A DNA stretch of 12,950 bases from Peptococcaceae bacterium (GTDB lineage Bacteria > Bacillota > DSM-12270 > Thermacetogeniales > Thermacetogeniaceae), in assembly GCA_003160265.1 (NCBI GenBank), contig PLQY01000015.1:436-13385 (forward strand). The letters are read 5' to 3'. Shown here piece after piece: positions 1,264-7,615 of the stretch. The notes below the pieces were generated by a model. It saw nothing but the letters and a program-made list of their open reading frames with translations. It made no database searches and was not told the DNA's origin. Made by a program: the position numbers and the translations under genes. How positions within the stretch are numbered: position 1 is the first letter of the stretch; every line of letters begins with the position of its first letter.

Positions 1264-1270
1264 CTTGTGC

Positions 1271-1300
1271 GGGTGCGCGGCCGCCTCTCGGCCCGCACCC
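1271..1300 (-). promoter_or_regulatory. stable hairpin between Shine-Dalgarno and start of the DUF932 gene
   Basis: On the minus strand GGGTGCG pairs with CGCACCC, and after one bulged G the stem continues GGCCG with CGGCC around an AGAGG loop, giving 12 base pairs in 30 nt. It sits directly between the perfect AAAGGAGG and the ATG at 1263. When folded it would bring the ribosome binding site to about 12 nt from the ATG. Structured spacers of this kind are known, for example in phage T4 gene 38. Here the role is inferred. Confidence 0.5.
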
Positions 1301-1347
1301 AATCGCCTCCTTTGAGTGATTGGATTTACGGGCCAACGGCCCTGTTG

Positions 1348-1740
1348 CTACCCGTCCAGTTCGTCACAGTCGCTGCAGAGCTCCAGGATCAGAGCTACTT
1401 TCACCTTCATTTCGGCTAAGGTCTCAGGATCGATATGCCCCACCAGCTTCAGCTTGTCTTGGAATACCGTCATGATCTGGTCACTGACCACTTTGGACGG
1501 TATTTTCAGTCCGGCTTCCCGCCAATGTTCGATATTCAGATCCCAGGGACCTGCTGCCGGCTGACTGGATACACTTGCAACCACCAGATCCTGTCTTGCC
1601 TGGTTGTGGTACTCCGAACTCACCACTACTGCAGGCCTGGTTTTAGAGCCAGGTTTCTGCCGGAAGGGCAGTTCAACTATGACCACATCGCCCGGCCTGA
1701 ACTTCCTCTTTTCATTCTTCCAACTCTTCGTAGTCGTCAT
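1348..1740 (-). CDS. PemK/MazF-family toxin, probable endoribonuclease
   Basis: A protein of about 130 residues of the PemK/MazF family, whose members cleave mRNA at short sequences and are held inactive by a partner antitoxin. The family core is clear: FRPGDVVIVELPF at the start of the barrel, KTRPAVVVSSEYHN, a V-A-S-V-S-S strand, then WREAGLKIPSKVVSDQIMT, and a closing helix that begins with D-P-E-T-L-A-E. The P-G-D and R-P-A-V-V-V-S elements and the conserved Ser are where family members carry substrate-binding residues. The ATG at 1740 is used because the preceding in-frame ATGs (1752, 1758) also lack a convincing ribosome binding site. All of them overlap the antitoxin gene, which implies translational coupling. 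There is only one toxin in the window although the antitoxin block occurs twice. Confidence 0.88.
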   Translation of the reverse strand: MTTTKSWKNEKRKFRPGDVVIVELPFRQKPGSKTRPAVVVSSEYHNQARQDLVVASVSSQPAAGPWDLNIEHWREAGLKIPSKVVSDQIMTVFQDKLKLVGHIDPETLAEMKVKVALILELCSDCDELDG

Positions 1741-1900
1741 CTGTCCATTCATCTTCATCAAAGAATCCGGTCGCCTCAACCAAGGCCACCTTCTTCCCCG
1801 CCAGATCCGGCCAGAGACGATCCATGAGCCGGTTGAAAAGCCAGTTCTGGTCCTCCCAGCTCATCTCTTGCGCCGCCCGTTCCAACTCTTCTCTCGTCAT
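1712..1900 (-). CDS. antitoxin partner of the MazF-like toxin
   Basis: A small protein of about 62 residues directly upstream of the toxin, overlapping it by about 29 nt in another frame. It has a helical N-terminal part, MTREELERAAQEMSWEDQNW, followed by LFNRLMDRLWPDLAGKK, and a strongly acidic tail (DEDEWTDDDYEELEE). This layout, a folded N-terminus plus an acidic tail able to fill the toxin groove, is usual for MazF antitoxins. I do not recognise the exact family. Two starts are possible: GTG at 1912, eight nt after a GGAGG, and ATG at 1900 after AGAGG. The ATG is preferred because the duplicate copy near 12.8 kb has lost the GTG. Autoregulation by the pair would be normal for such modules, but no operator is proven here. 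Confidence 0.75.
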   Translation of the reverse strand: MTREELERAAQEMSWEDQNWLFNRLMDRLWPDLAGKKVALVEATGFFDEDEWTDDDYEELEE

Positions 1901-2021
1901 CAAAACAATCACCTCTCATTCCTCCGATCCGCTCCTCTCTTGACAAAATAGAGTGCCCGGAGGGATTTCTCCCTGCGGGCGCAAGATTCCACGCCCGCCG
2001 GGGCAAACAAAAAAAGACACA
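1762..2021 (-). repeat. 260-bp direct repeat, copy 1 (antitoxin leader and start)
   Basis: This block recurs at 12638-12897 in the same orientation. A run of 25 identical bases (1912-1936 against 12788-12812) and many shorter runs anchor the alignment. The register shifts by one base inside the antitoxin start because copy 2 lacks one base. The copy covers the antitoxin's first two-thirds, its leader, and the T-run of the upstream terminator. The leader keeps a perfect 7-bp stem, GCGGGCG with CGCCCGC (1975-1998), whose loop differs between copies, and a GGGA-GAAA-TCCC hairpin. Structure is kept while loops drift, which suggests the leader RNA matters. Confidence 0.85.
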
Positions 2022-2065
2022 AAACCACCTTGAGCAGCATGCTGCTCCTAATGGCAAAAGTGTCT
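2009..2065 (-). terminator. apparent intrinsic terminator of the structured RNA
   Basis: On the minus strand AGACAC (2060-2065) pairs with GTGTCT (2015-2020), and the second arm runs straight into seven T residues. Between the arms lies a perfect 16-bp palindrome, GAGCAGCATGCTGCTC (2032-2047), which would fold as an inner hairpin. This is a plausible rho-independent end for the transcript starting near 2682, although the long interior makes it atypical. Confidence 0.55.
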
Positions 2066-2242
2066 CGTCTTTCAAAAGTTATTCAGTTGCCAGCGCGCCT
2101 GCAACAACGCACCGGAATTCGGAATCTCTTCATGCGGAGTACTACGGGTCCCAATTGGGGGCGATTCCTAGGCGTAAACCCCCGCCAACCGCTGCGGCAT
2201 TCGCCGCTCCTCCGCCGGGCAGGTTACCGCACTGCCCACGCA

Positions 2243-2533
2243 GGCCACCGCATCGCTCTTCGCTCTCTGCCCAGTGGCCGTTCTGCCCGTCACTCACGGC
2301 TGGGTCCCACCGCCTCTGCCCCGCTCTTCGCACCACAGAGGTTCCGTCAAGGCGGGAAACTCGCAATCGCTCTTCGCGCATTTCATGCAAACTTCCTCTT
2401 AAGCCTTTTCCGAAAGACGCCTCGCTCTTCGCTCTCAGCGTCCGCCACAGGAGTACACCCGCTCTTCGCACTGGGACTTTTCCTGTGTCCTTCCCTGCCA
2501 GCCTGCGATCGCTCTTCGCTCTTCTCATGCAGG
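2243..2533 (-). repeat. six hairpins with the shared loop motif GCGAAGAGCG
   Basis: The ten-base motif GCGAAGAGCG occurs six times on the minus strand (plus-strand spans 2510-2519, 2460-2469, 2423-2432, 2368-2377, 2322-2331, 2254-2263), with steps of 37 to 68 bases. Each copy lies inside its own inverted repeat. The stems are CCTGC/GCAGG (2502-2533), CACAGGA/TCCTGTG (2446-2487), GACGC/GCGTC (2416-2442), GGAAGTTTGC/GCGAGTTTCC with three G-U pairs (2355-2396), CCTCTG/CAGAGG (2313-2341) and GGCCACTG/CGGTGGCC with one G-U pair (2243-2279). The loop sequence is constant and the stems differ but stay complementary, as expected for RNA structural units rather than a simple DNA repeat. Confidence 0.75.
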
Positions 2534-2688
2534 TTCCGGAACTTTCATCCGCACCGGTATTTGGGATACCGGTGGACAGGAAGAGATGTTGTCTCAGTTA
2601 TAAAGCCTCTGAGACCAGGCATACCAAGTTTATTGACTTGGGCATCCCGTGACTTTTGACAACTTCTGCCACGGGCTTCTTTATCCGA

Positions 2689-2717
2689 ACTCTACAACCT
2701 TTTTAAAAGGTTGTCAA
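2689..2717 (-). promoter_or_regulatory. sigma-A type promoter with palindromic operator, drives the structured RNA
   Basis: On the minus strand a consensus -35 TTGACA (2712-2717) is followed after exactly 17 bases by a -10 like TAGAGT (2689-2694). The spacer is filled by a perfect odd-length palindrome, CAACCTTTTTAAAAGGTTG, extending one further pair each side (2694-2714). A second palindrome, GAGCGATCGCTC (2722-2733), lies just upstream of the -35. A palindrome between -35 and -10 is a classical repressor position, so the RNA is probably regulated. The regulator is unknown. Confidence 0.7.
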
Positions 2718-3521: not shown

Positions 3522-4199
3522 CTATTTTTTCAGCTTCACGGCGCGACTGAATTCGTCCGGTCTGGCGCCCACGACGGCAAGATCCCAGGTGTATTTTTTT
3601 CCCGGTGGCGTTTTCTGTTCAGCGTCTTCGCAGTCCGGGTAAATAAATATATCCGCTTCCGGCGCAGGATCGTCGCCCAGTCTCGGAGCGTCGACCAGCC
3701 ACCGGATCGCCTCGCCGTCCTTGCTGGCGAAACTGACTTCCGCCATCACCGGCCGGCCAGGGCGGCGGACCAACCTCCAGCCGAACCCGGGCATTTCCAG
3801 CCTGGCGTGGGCGTAAAACAGCCCCAGGACCGCCTGCCGGCAGGCATCACTGGCATCGGCAGGATGCTGGCGCCCTTTGACCGCCCAGAGCTGGAATTGC
3901 GCATTGGTAGTGCCTGGGGCGCTCTGCGAAAACACGCTGTAGATATCCACCACCCCCGCGAGCCAGAGACTTTTAGCCGCAGCGCCCATCTCTTGCCGGT
4001 TGCGCCGCAGCGCCACCGCGGCCGCGGTCTGGGTCAGCGCCCCGGCCTCCGCCAGGCATTCCATAAGAGCAACTGCTTTGCCATCGCAATCGTCCCTCTC
4101 TTTCATGGAGCCGGCCTTCATCTTGACCAGGCAAACTCCATGGGCATAAAAACTATCCGCTTTCAACTTTTGTTCCAATAGTTGTTCCAGCGCATTCAA
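3522..4199 (-). CDS. unrecognised winged-helix-like protein
   Basis: A 225-residue protein I do not recognise. Residues about 45-85 (from KAVALMECLAEAGALTQTAA through LRRNRQEM to LAGVVDIYSVF) read like a winged helix: a helix, a second helix starting L-T-Q-T-A-A, a basic recognition-like helix, then a strand pair ending in a tyrosine-containing wing. The second half has G-W-R-L-V-R-R-P-G-R-P-V-M-A-E-V-S-F and Y-T-W-D-L-A-V-V-G, which could form a beta-rich domain. The general arrangement resembles replication-relaxation proteins of Gram-positive plasmids, but that is a weak resemblance. The start has AAAGGAG four bases upstream. It follows the S1-like gene by 23 nt and is surely in the same transcript, so a role in RNA or DNA transactions of the element is plausible. 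Confidence 0.6.
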   Translation of the reverse strand: MNALEQLLEQKLKADSFYAHGVCLVKMKAGSMKERDDCDGKAVALMECLAEAGALTQTAAAVALRRNRQEMGAAAKSLWLAGVVDIYSVFSQSAPGTTNAQFQLWAVKGRQHPADASDACRQAVLGLFYAHARLEMPGFGWRLVRRPGRPVMAEVSFASKDGEAIRWLVDAPRLGDDPAPEADIFIYPDCEDAEQKTPPGKKYTWDLAVVGARPDEFSRAVKLKK

Positions 4200-4222: not shown

Positions 4223-5257
4223 CTAACCCCAGAGGTCAAGACGCAGTTTCTGCTCCTTGGGCGAATAGACATTGACCTTGGCGAGCACTCTTTCCCCGAC
4301 ATGAAGTCCGTGCAGAGTCGAGGCGATCCCGATCAGCCCGGGCTGCACTTCCAGGTGCAGCACCAGCGAGCCATCCTGCTGTTTTACCTGCCTGACAACC
4401 CTGGCCGCGACCACGTCGCCCCTCTGGCAGCTGTATGTTGCCCATGGGTCTGCCTCAACGGCAGTCAGAGACACCCTGATCGTGTCTGTCTGGCGGTCAA
4501 CCCGGATCACCTTCGCCTTGGCCTGTTTGCCCGGACGGAACAACCGCTCCAGCCTCTCGGCCTGGCGCGTTGTCGCCGAACCCCGGGACACCTCGACCAG
4601 CACTCCGCCCCCCACGTCCACCACGAGTCTTGGCGGCTTGTCGCCTTCCGCCGGCAGGACTGCCTTCACCACCACATCGATTATTTGATCGGGCTGAAGC
4701 GTTGCAAATACCCTTTCCCGGGCGTCGGCAATGGCCGCCCGGCGGGAGCAGGCCGCCAGGCGATTTTCCTTATCCATACCGGCGATTTTCACTCTCACCA
4801 CCTGGCCGACGTAACGGAACATGAGCCGCTGGCTCTCCAGGCCGGTTTCACTGAGCGGGCAGACGCCCTTCACGCCGCCGAGGTCGAGTTCCCAGACGGC
4901 CGTCTTCAAGTTGTCGGGGAAGGTGATCTTTTCCACGCAAGCCTCTATTGGCCGGTCTTTCTTGTGAACGAACCATAGATACTCCCATCGATCCGCTTCC
5001 TGAACGAAGCCCTCCGGTTTTACCTTTTGCATAGCCGCAGGGAACGTCTCCCTTGGTTTTTTTCCGCTTGTCTTCTTGCTCTTCTCAGGCACAGGAGTTG
5101 CCGTCGGCTCTAAGGCGACCCGCCCTTCATCCGGCAGATCTCTGTCTAAGGCTTCAGGATCGATAATCTGGTTCTCCGGAGCAACGTAATCTTCCAGCAC
5201 AATACCCGTCTTTTGCTTATCATCGATGAAATCTTGCTTTACCTTGGAAATTACCAT
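4223..5257 (-). CDS. protein with three S1-like RNA-binding repeats
   Basis: A protein of 344 residues. Residues 1-80 are charged and probably disordered, including a K/S-rich stretch. Three S1-like OB repeats follow: one around 95-165 (GVKGVCPLSETG then GQVVRVKIAGMDKENRLAAC), one around 175-250 (VVDVGGGVLVEVSRGSA then GKQAKAKVIRVDRQTDTIRV), and one around 255-340 (RGDVVAARVVRQV then VGERVLAKVNVYSPKEQKLR). The G-x-x-V-x-A-K-V-x-x-V-D-x-x pattern that closes each repeat is the S1 signature. S1 domains bind single-stranded RNA or DNA. The ATG at 5257 has AGGAGAGG at good spacing; an in-frame GTG three codons earlier is too close to it. It begins 80 nt after a terminator, and I see no clear promoter in that gap. 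Confidence 0.78.
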   Translation of the reverse strand: MVISKVKQDFIDDKQKTGIVLEDYVAPENQIIDPEALDRDLPDEGRVALEPTATPVPEKSKKTSGKKPRETFPAAMQKVKPEGFVQEADRWEYLWFVHKKDRPIEACVEKITFPDNLKTAVWELDLGGVKGVCPLSETGLESQRLMFRYVGQVVRVKIAGMDKENRLAACSRRAAIADARERVFATLQPDQIIDVVVKAVLPAEGDKPPRLVVDVGGGVLVEVSRGSATTRQAERLERLFRPGKQAKAKVIRVDRQTDTIRVSLTAVEADPWATYSCQRGDVVAARVVRQVKQQDGSLVLHLEVQPGLIGIASTLHGLHVGERVLAKVNVYSPKEQKLRLDLWG

Positions 5258-5337
5258 GAGAAACACCTCTCCTTCTCTAAGCTTGTTCTGTTTTTATTGC
5301 CCATTCCAAGATCCATTGCCCCGTCCGGAATCCAAAC

Positions 5338-5593: not shown

Positions 5594-7615
5594 TCAGCTT
5601 TGCCACCAAGCGCTTTTTTCACCAACCCCTCTTCCGCCGTTTTCCGGTAGTTCCGGCTGCTCCTCGAGGTCCGGGGGAACATCCATCCCCGGCCCTTCGG
5701 GGAGATCAACTTGCTCCTCGTTCTGCAAGCCGTCCACATCTATATCCAGCTGCTCCGGAGTTATTTCCCGCCGTGGCTGATCCATGCCGGAGGCGGACAA
5801 TTCCTCGGCCTCGGGAAACTCCAGGTAATCCACCGTCCGGAGCCTGACCGGCGGCGTGCCGTCCGGCAGGAACGCCAGGCTGGTTCTGGCGCGGGTGTTC
5901 ACGACCTCGCTCAGCATCATCAGCTCCCTTCCGGCGCTGCTCCTGGTCACCCGGTGGTCCCCCTCGCCGGGGCCGTAGCTATCACTCTCGGTGGCCACGG
6001 TAGCCCGGCCAATCAGCCGGGAGACGTAGTCCGCAGTGTGGTTGTCCTTCACGCCCAGGACCAGCTTCGTGTCGCAGCAGGAGAGGATCTCCTCCCAGGT
6101 TCTCCCGTACTTGCGCTCCAGTTGCGGCAGACCCTGGATGATCACGTGGCACTCGATGCCCCGGCTGCGCACCGTGGCGATCTTCTTCTCAAACTCCGGG
6201 ATGACCACAATATTGGCAAATTCGTCCAATAATGCCCTGACGGGCACCGGAAGGCGGTTCGTGCTGTCCGAGTCCGCCAGAGCCACCAGGCGGACGAAGA
6301 GAAAGGTGAAGAAGAGCGACGCCAGGAAATTGAACGCCCCATGCGTGTCGGGGGTGATCACGAAGTAGGCGCAGGGGTTCTTGCCCGGCAGGGCCAGGTC
6401 TATTTCCGTGGAGTCCGTGATCCGCCGTACTTGTTCTTGCTGGAAGGTCTGGAGCCGGGTGCCGAGGCCGATCACGATGTTGCCCCACATGTTCTCGCCG
6501 GCCATCTTGGAGATCATGTACGGGCCGTAAGCCGGATGCGTTTTGGGCAGTATGGTGAACCGGCTGTCCAGCGCCAGCCTGTCGCCCAGAGCCACCAGAT
6601 CGTAAACCTGCCCTACCGTGCCCGGGCATCTCCGGCCATCCGCCTCGTAGCAGACATACAAGACCAGCGCCTTGAGCAGGTTCTGCTCGGCTCGGTTCCA
6701 GAAACTGTCGCTGTTTTTCTGAGCGCCGTTATCCGTGGTGGAGATCACCACCTCGGAGAACACGTCGGCATCCAGCGGTTCGCTGATCTCGTTCAGGGGG
6801 TTCCATTGGTTGGATTCCAGCATCTGCACCAGGTCGAGCTTTCTGACTATATATCCCTTGGAGCGCAGCCACCGGGCCATGCTCCTGTAGATCTCCCCTT
6901 TCGGATCGGTCACGAGAACGCTGATGCCCTCCCGCACGGCGGTCATGATGTTGGGGCGCACATAGGCCCGGCTCTTGCCGCTGCCGGGCGTTCCGACCAC
7001 CAGCACGTGCTTGTTCATCCAGACCTTGAGCGTCGGCGGGATGCGCACGCTCTTCCGATCTATCATCGCCCCGAGGACGATGCCCGGCCCATGGCCAAAC
7101 TCGCACACCCGCGCCAGGTCGGCCTTCTCCGCCCAGCGGGCGGGGCCGTGGGTGTCTTTCTTTGCGCCGGCCTGGTCCGCGAAGTAAAGCTGCCAGACCA
7201 GGAAGATCAGCGTGCCGCCCAGGGCGTTGAGGACGAGGAATACGTTCCGCACGAAGGAATACTGCAGGCCTTTAAAGTTGGTTGCCCATGCCCGCAGGAC
7301 AGATAGGGGATGGGCCAGGTAGTACCGCGGCGCTACCGCCCGGAAGGCCGCCGCCTTCTTGAAGAGGGGGTTGTACGACAAAGCCTTGGCGACCCAGGCC
7401 GCCGCGCAACCCATGGTCGCCACGTCCGCCACCAGGAACGCAGCGGCAAGAAGCGCTATGATCGCGGCCAGCCCTGGTGAGCGGCGCCTCAGCCAGATAG
7501 TCCAGGATACGGCGGCGATCAGGGCGAACGGCCAGCACCACCAGGCTAAAAGGACCGTAAAAATAACCGCCGCAGCGGTTACAAGCGGGTCTCTTTTCGC
7601 CAATTCCACGCTCAC
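5594..7615 (-). CDS. VirD4/TraG-type type IV coupling protein
   Basis: A 673-residue ATPase that, in this family, docks the relaxase-DNA complex to a type IV secretion channel at the inner membrane. The N-terminus has membrane segments near 11-42, 47-76 and 122-146. Walker A is VVGTPGSGKS at about 206-215, followed by the family signature VLVTDPKGEIYRS at about 233-245, the W-N-P-L motif near 271, and Walker B ALLDEFANIVVIPEFEKK from 461. The I-x-Q-G-L-P-Q-L segment and the C-C-D-T-K-L-V-L-G motif also fit. The C-terminal 80 residues are acidic and proline-rich, probably a flexible substrate-binding tail. The ATG lies three bases after the stop of the loader gene. No relaxase or mating-pair gene is visible, so the rest of the transfer set must lie elsewhere or be missing. 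Confidence 0.93.
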   Translation of the reverse strand: MSVELAKRDPLVTAAAVIFTVLLAWWCWPFALIAAVSWTIWLRRRSPGLAAIIALLAAAFLVADVATMGCAAAWVAKALSYNPLFKKAAAFRAVAPRYYLAHPLSVLRAWATNFKGLQYSFVRNVFLVLNALGGTLIFLVWQLYFADQAGAKKDTHGPARWAEKADLARVCEFGHGPGIVLGAMIDRKSVRIPPTLKVWMNKHVLVVGTPGSGKSRAYVRPNIMTAVREGISVLVTDPKGEIYRSMARWLRSKGYIVRKLDLVQMLESNQWNPLNEISEPLDADVFSEVVISTTDNGAQKNSDSFWNRAEQNLLKALVLYVCYEADGRRCPGTVGQVYDLVALGDRLALDSRFTILPKTHPAYGPYMISKMAGENMWGNIVIGLGTRLQTFQQEQVRRITDSTEIDLALPGKNPCAYFVITPDTHGAFNFLASLFFTFLFVRLVALADSDSTNRLPVPVRALLDEFANIVVIPEFEKKIATVRSRGIECHVIIQGLPQLERKYGRTWEEILSCCDTKLVLGVKDNHTADYVSRLIGRATVATESDSYGPGEGDHRVTRSSAGRELMMLSEVVNTRARTSLAFLPDGTPPVRLRTVDYLEFPEAEELSASGMDQPRREITPEQLDIDVDGLQNEEQVDLPEGPGMDVPPDLEEQPELPENGGRGVGEKSAWWQS

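Follow-up and report, generated by a model that had tools for sequence, protein, structure and literature searches.

Comparative sequence analysis demonstrates, on the minus strand of the 12,950-nt stretch of DNA studied here (the window), a conserved, covarying RNA secondary structure. It is organised as an array of usually five hairpins, six in the window, which are regularly spaced and end in GC-closed GNNRA pentaloops, and it is accompanied by promoter-like and terminator-like signals in the context of a mobile element. The explanation favoured here, with a probability of roughly one half, is that of a stand-alone structured noncoding RNA of conjugative or integrative elements, the loops of which would dock to give a compact particle. 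An S1-domain protein would be its likeliest partner, and transfer or maintenance of the element its purpose.

Hairpin array and layout of the RNA in the window

Between 2255 and 2519 on the minus strand, GCGAAGAGC occurs six times, each copy being closed by its own separate stem. Read on the plus strand, the window contains six exact copies of CGCTCTTCGC, starting at 2254, 2322, 2368, 2423, 2460 and 2510; likewise, GCGAAGAGCG is present on the minus strand in six exact copies confined to 2254-2519, and has no occurrence on the plus strand of the whole window. When 2001-2690 is shuffled 1000 times with dinucleotides preserved, the most frequent 10-mer reaches three copies at most. The own-stem scores of the six hairpins sum to 97, versus a mean of 58 and a maximum of 72 for all 265 derangements of the left and right flanks, and a mean of 52.9 and a maximum of 92 for 2000 random position sets in the same RNA; 97 is reached in neither control. 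The six copies of one motif on six different stems, which the initial annotation had described, are thus confirmed. Since inner G-C pairs close each loop, the window loops are GC-GAAGA-GC pentaloops and not 10-nt loops. The minus strand folds with -268.7 kcal/mol (z -2.4, 20 shuffles) and the plus strand also beats its shuffles (z -3.35, 20 shuffles); because both strands fold better than their own shuffles, folding energy cannot fix the strand.

The RNA as first delimited covers 2009-2682 of the minus strand, with approximate, predicted ends. The promoter-like site TTGACA-17-TAGAGT (2689-2717, minus strand) agrees with the consensus at 10 of 12 positions, and two promoter-like sites are found in 1900-2800 versus 0.5 expected. 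The conserved 137-nt core (2444-2580, minus strand) matches the covariance model R2, described below, with 116.1 bits (E 3.6e-29), a score that is not independent, the window being one of the six sequences behind the model. In order, the core consists of P1, the hairpin P2, the CGGATGAAAGTTCCG hairpin, loop hairpin 1, and a helix of 9 bp with the internal loop AAAAGTCCC/GGGTGTAC that carries loop hairpin 2. The CGGATGAAAGTTCCG hairpin (2537-2551, minus strand) has 100% of its cells paired in columns 42-59 of the alignment A7 and can be written CGGRTGRAAG..CCG across relatives. Loop hairpins 1 (2511-2519), 2 (2461-2469) and 3 (2424-2432), all on the minus strand, are assigned from an exact copy of GCGAAGAGC together with stem scoring. 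The copy at 2369-2377 (minus strand) has, by its place, no counterpart in five-loop members and is probably the window's extra hairpin. Stem scoring and alignment identify the two remaining copies, at 2323-2331 and 2255-2263 (minus strand), with numbers 4 and 5 of the relatives, and between them lies the conserved box GGTGGGACCCAGCCG...CGGGCAGAACGG (2278-2311, minus strand; 17 members aligned).

The predicted RNA end is a terminator-like hairpin, GACAC...GTGTC with a T run (2009-2060, minus strand), which is seen in the fold as GACACTTTTGCC...GTGTCTTTTTTT at about 2060-2009. A simple terminator scan of 1900-2800 listed no terminator, this hairpin included. Among the relatives, a (G/A)ACACTTTGG...GTGT-type hairpin with a T run was found in 12 of 27 loci by a script that missed the window's own and returned none in L207 and L220. 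In 15 of 27 loci, a distance of 29-34 nt separates P1 from the end of the best sigma-70-like site, a count without shuffle control. From P1 to the T run, the RNA measures 576 nt in the window (2583-2008), 684 nt in L188 and L192, 793 nt in L189 and 723 nt in L207. A second kind of repeat, CTAA-CGCC(G/A)CAGGC hairpins, is observed in the 3' half of the longer members L188, L189 and L207 and is not evident in the window.

Relatives, covariation and the RNA strand

Direct DNA searches recovered the window's own genome and otherwise pieces, namely leader and terminator in the same-genus genome G013 and short matches. With the leader as query against 398 genomes of the phylum, the own genome was found together with two short matches judged by eye to be chance. 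The first relatives were obtained with an alignment of the antitoxin-like protein (A2), which in the 398 phylum genomes identified the own genome and five genomes of family f14. In all five, a non-coding stretch with window-like boxes lies upstream of the antitoxin gene; AAAAGTCCCA..GCGAAGAGC..GGGTGTACTC is present in four of these stretches and GGTGGGACCCAACCG in five. Covariance model R1, applied to the 398 phylum genomes, gave matches in nine: the own genome, the five f14 genomes, G286 of family f111 (E 1e-35) and two with weak scores. The latter, G240 (E 0.004) and G339 (E 0.008), were judged by eye to be chance and dropped, as they show neither loop hairpins nor element homologues. Model R2, the R1 set with G286 added, yielded 22 matches in 20 of the 113 genomes of G286's class, covering 14 of its 55 genera; in the window's own class, the own genome alone matches (1 of 20). 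With the covariance-model search suggested at the outset, the homologous loci, counting the window, number 28 and are spread over 26 genomes, 17 genera and 11 families of one phylum. Two copies each are carried by G460 (L213, L232) and G497 (L225, L233).

An exact pattern of two 10-mer copies returned 42 IMG/VR stretches and at least 120 genome-contig stretches, with no R2 member among the matches listed; the best R2 score in those 162 loci is E 0.08 (L125). Anchor and box patterns gave no match in IMG/VR, CGGATGGAAGCTCCGGA occurs there in seven contigs, which R2 does not recognise as members (best E 0.91), and searches of PLSDB plasmids and INPHARED phages for the RNA gave no match. The locus L002/L202 (G013:C134) was first read as a member with another constant loop, and is left out of the count because R1 and R2 give no match there. 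Its toxin pair shares 75% DNA identity over window 1268-2083, and the stretch before the pair is shorter, with four hairpins bearing the loops (G/A)CGGGTG(C/T) (three times) and CGTGTG (once). It may be another constant-loop RNA, unrelated to the first, that occupies the same place.

Base pairing was evaluated in several alignments. In A3, a 142-column MAFFT alignment of the window, L188, L190, L192 and L189, 97.1% of the cells are paired over 42 pairs, and 18 of the 42 pairs show two-sided change. None of 500 shuffles reaches either value and two of 500 reach the number of pair types; slid versions of the structure attain 37-43% pairing, a comparison that favours the A3 structure because it was drawn from the same alignment. 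In A7, the R2 alignment of 27 of the 28 loci (25 distinct), 98.4% of 1030 cells are paired in the 137-nt core, and two-sided, compensatory change affects 37 of the 42 pairs (278 cells). All five measures lie above all 500 shuffles, and pairing in slid structures amounts to 33-43%; unlike A3, A7 was fitted to the model structure and leans towards it. In alignment A5, the number of pair types is not above shuffles (296 of 500 reached it). In A3 and A7, the relatives display compensatory changes beyond the controls, and the stems retain their complementarity in homologues. Beyond the core, 17 members chosen across the diversity have hairpin 4, the GGGACCC..CGGGCAAAAYGG box and the last loop in common, with variation; RNAalifold predicts 12 pairs there, nine of them with two-sided change. 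An alignment of four relatives over their full length predicts 162 pairs, of which 34 show two-sided change. Among the 1030 cells of A7, 72 are G-U and 2 are A-C. Since G-U outnumbers A-C to this extent, the minus strand of the window is read as the RNA, in agreement with the strand first assigned.

In Rfam 15 (4227 families), a library that presumably includes the GOLLD, ROOL, OLE and HEARO models, nothing matches the window at gathering score. At E<=1, the 28 loci give two weak matches alone, both below gathering: one in the window leader at 1938-2008 (18.8 bits vs 45 needed) and one at the RNA end of L227 (28.4 bits vs 70 needed). The GOLLD, ROOL and OLE models have no match at E<=1 in the 28 loci. 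The comparison with the large RNAs of Rfam, proposed in the initial annotation, brings no family to its threshold. The claim made there of a new large structured minus-strand RNA is strongly supported, as the stems stay complementary in relatives and no reading frame is shared by all of them. In the open-licence literature, covered through titles and abstract beginnings among the matches listed, the RNA is not described.

Loop class and gene context

The pattern [GC][CT]GNNRA[AG][CG] with G-C or C-G ends, scanned in the first 340 nt of each RNA (400 nt for the window), gives 122 matches in 25 RNAs, versus 36 when the sequences are reversed and 4 on their reverse complements; some of the matches, e.g. 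CTGCTGAAG, are not hairpins. Five loops are present in 17 of the 25 RNAs, six in the window and fewer in seven (L225, L227-L231 and L233, with two to four by the pattern). The five places lie at about 60, 110, 148, 180 and 243, with L220 counted and the last two shifted in L224; the window's loops lie at 62, 112, 149, 204, 250 and 318. Across the RNAs, the own stems score 1566, versus a maximum of 1054 in 500 within-RNA derangements. The commonest loops are GATGA (57), GAAGA (21), GAAAA and GCTGA (11 each), GATAA (5) and GAGGA (4). In L220, GNRA tetraloops occupy four of the five loop places (GCGAGAGC, GTGAGAGC twice and GTGTGAGC). Because of the loop variants and these tetraloops, the constant feature is a closed GNNRA loop replaceable by GNRA; by their letters, the loops are GNRA-like pentaloops exchangeable with a GNRA tetraloop. 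The single constant loop first reported is therefore identical six times within the window and broadens into a GC-closed class across relatives. Loop likeness amounts to 0.57 within one RNA versus 0.26 between RNAs (shuffled; maximum 0.38).

The GNRA fold has known pentaloop variants; in three of four representatives, the flipped-out bases contact protein (PMC12550061). The presence of one GC-closed GNNRA class, with GNRA tetraloops in one relative, suggests that the loops are probably docking loops. A conserved 11-nt tetraloop receptor, looked for by eye, was not found. With regard to the CsrB-type binding or loop-loop contacts initially envisaged, the loop class fits docking of the GNRA type better than CsrB-like binding or kissing between identical loops.

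Downstream of the RNA, the window encodes a 66-aa antitoxin-like protein (1712-1912, minus strand; 22 homologues, no Pfam family) and a PemK/MazF-type toxin (1348-1746, minus strand; PF02452, E 4e-16). One antitoxin homologue in the protein database comes from Desulfohalotomaculum tongense, and PemK searches gave one distant protein in IMG/VR and three distant ones in PLSDB. Upstream lie the genes for the protein 'u3522' (3522-4199, minus strand; tblastn homologues, no Pfam family), for an S1-domain protein that is a possible partner (4223-5266, minus strand; PF00575, E 2e-6) and for a type IV coupling protein (T4SS-DNA_transf; 5594-7615, minus strand; PF02534, E 6e-50). An actin-like partition protein is also recognised by Pfam, and replication, partition and transfer genes are present in the window's element. 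Upstream of the RNA, a u3522 homologue is found in 19 of 27 loci and an S1-domain gene in 14 of 27; u3522 was not seen in L215 (over 138 nt) or in L222, L224, L225, L227, L228, L231 and L233 (most over 1.5 kb). The order coupling protein, S1, u3522, RNA is shared by the window, L243 (3.5 kb before the RNA) and L245, and the order S1, u3522, RNA recurs in other loci; integrase, RadC and ArdC-type genes occur near several.

The first downstream gene in the 27 loci belongs to a PemK pair in eight, is DUF4258 in eight, SSB in three, antitoxin-like and then SSB in one, integrase in three and of another kind in four, Pfam having been run on one to two of each kind. The RNA is thus constant while the downstream cargo changes, and since these genes vary, it is not specific to the toxin-antitoxin pair of the window. 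Three further similarities were observed in the window. Towards the contig end, 12638-12898 repeats part of the stretch with leader and antitoxin (85.6% to 1762-2022). The inverted repeat around AGGCTTTAT(A/C)A at window 2591-2622 recurs with 91% identity in L003 at about 1501-1531, between two genes of G019 (E 5e-4). Window positions of about 2712-2790 are shared with L005 at about 1501-1600, by eye an apparent transposon end beside a transposase-like frame in G013.

Rival readings and proposed mechanism

That the region codes for protein is barely credible. The window does hold long frames, among them 209 and 165 aa on the plus strand, the latter matching L207 (E 4e-6) and L213 (7e-5) at 32-33% in tblastn, among the matches listed, and in L207 and L226 one antisense frame runs through the whole 560 nt. 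However, a sense frame open over 560 nt is found in none of 23 relatives and an antisense one in L207 and L226 alone, the longest runs in any frame being 80 codons in L229, 79 in L230 and 72-73 in L222, and the changes follow base pairs. The open antisense frames are taken as chance in G+C-rich sequence; across all relatives, no single frame stays open from end to end. Repeats acting at the DNA level, such as iterons, a transfer origin or partition sites, would suit a 10-mer repeated in a mobile element that also carries genes for replication, partition and transfer; this explanation is very improbable, given that stem letters change with pairing kept, that G-U is favoured over A-C on one strand and that the loop sequence itself differs between relatives. 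A role in the control of the neighbouring toxin-antitoxin pair, as RNA antitoxin or as regulator, by analogy with type III systems (ToxI repeats, terminator, ToxN), has in its favour a repeat-bearing RNA whose terminator lies, in the window, just before the antitoxin-like gene and the MazF-fold toxin gene, as well as the PemK-type genes that follow in 8 of 27 loci. ToxI repeats are near-identical tandem units, which those found here are not, and the downstream gene is not conserved: linkage to a ToxN-type toxin is not kept, with a PemK-type gene next in those 8 of 27 loci only and other genes in 19 with the RNA conserved, and G013 has a similar toxin pair without the RNA. Because the downstream genes proved variable, this reading was dropped as improbable.

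A more serious, if doubtful, contender is a multivalent protein scaffold or sponge with about five sites, in which each GNNRA pentaloop binds one copy of a protein, either S1 or a peptide as in phage N-boxB. Phage boxB is a single short hairpin for antitermination, as opposed to the array in a large RNA found here. What the two have in common is a GNRA-like pentaloop with a flipped-out base, and such bases often contact protein (PMC12550061). The greater likeness of loops within one RNA than between RNAs and the upstream S1-domain genes also fit a scaffold, whereas the middle loop base varies widely between RNAs, is absent in four L220 loops, and several loci have no S1 homologue nearby (mostly within 1.5 kb). 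CsrB and RsmZ likewise present several hairpins with a common loop. Unlike theirs, the loops here are GNNRA, and GGA, the CsrA motif, is contained in four GAGGA and one GGGGA of the 122 matches and in none of the six window loops.

In the preferred explanation, docking into a compact particle, the loops would adopt a GNRA-tetraloop fold from which one base is flipped out and would insert into helices through A-minor contacts; the RNA would thereby be packed, either inside a single molecule or across copies. The upstream-encoded S1-domain protein would be the likeliest protein partner, and the particle would serve transfer or maintenance of the element and not the toxin-antitoxin cargo. Several sequence observations weigh against docking: no loop receptor was found, the neighbours are not constant, and seven of the 25 RNAs appear to have two to four loops. 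Furthermore, the likeness of loops within one RNA (0.57 vs 0.26) is not required by generic docking. It is rather unlikely, though worth considering, that the RNA is a self-assembling RNA or RNP particle, in which the GNNRA loops would dock into the helices of the next copy, with or without S1, for transfer or maintenance.

OLE, a large structured RNA of Gram-positive type bacteria that works with proteins, is comparable in being large and structured; it differs in its neighbouring genes and in that the RNA described here has no Rfam match. GOLLD and ROOL are also large and heavily structured, and ROOL resides on phages and prophages, as the present RNA does on other mobile elements. Both are held together by A-minor contacts and loops, a role that GNNRA loops may play here. 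The differences lie in the conjugative or integrative setting, the regular array of GNNRA hairpins and the lack of an Rfam match to either. According to a cryo-EM study, GOLLD, ROOL and OLE assemble into 14-, 8- and 2-mers through A-minor and loop contacts; it also assigns ROOL to phages and prophages and describes protein binding by the OLE 5' region (PMC12286853). Since raiA RNA stays a monomer in the same study (PMC12286853), size does not predict assembly.

The RNA is rated as a new class, with its own architecture and host element, within the known broad kind of large structured RNAs found on mobile elements. Strongly covarying large RNA classes are rare in bacteria, and what most of them do is an open question. 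The present one comes with an alignment, a covariance model and the single-contig carrier genomes G249, G456 and G459; its neighbouring genes recur in an order that includes a coupling protein and a protein with an S1 RNA-binding domain, and the role of its loops is testable by small changes. If it is a self-assembling particle, it would be the conjugative counterpart of the phage ROOL cages. With this RNA, the role of large ornate RNAs becomes testable in conjugative elements.
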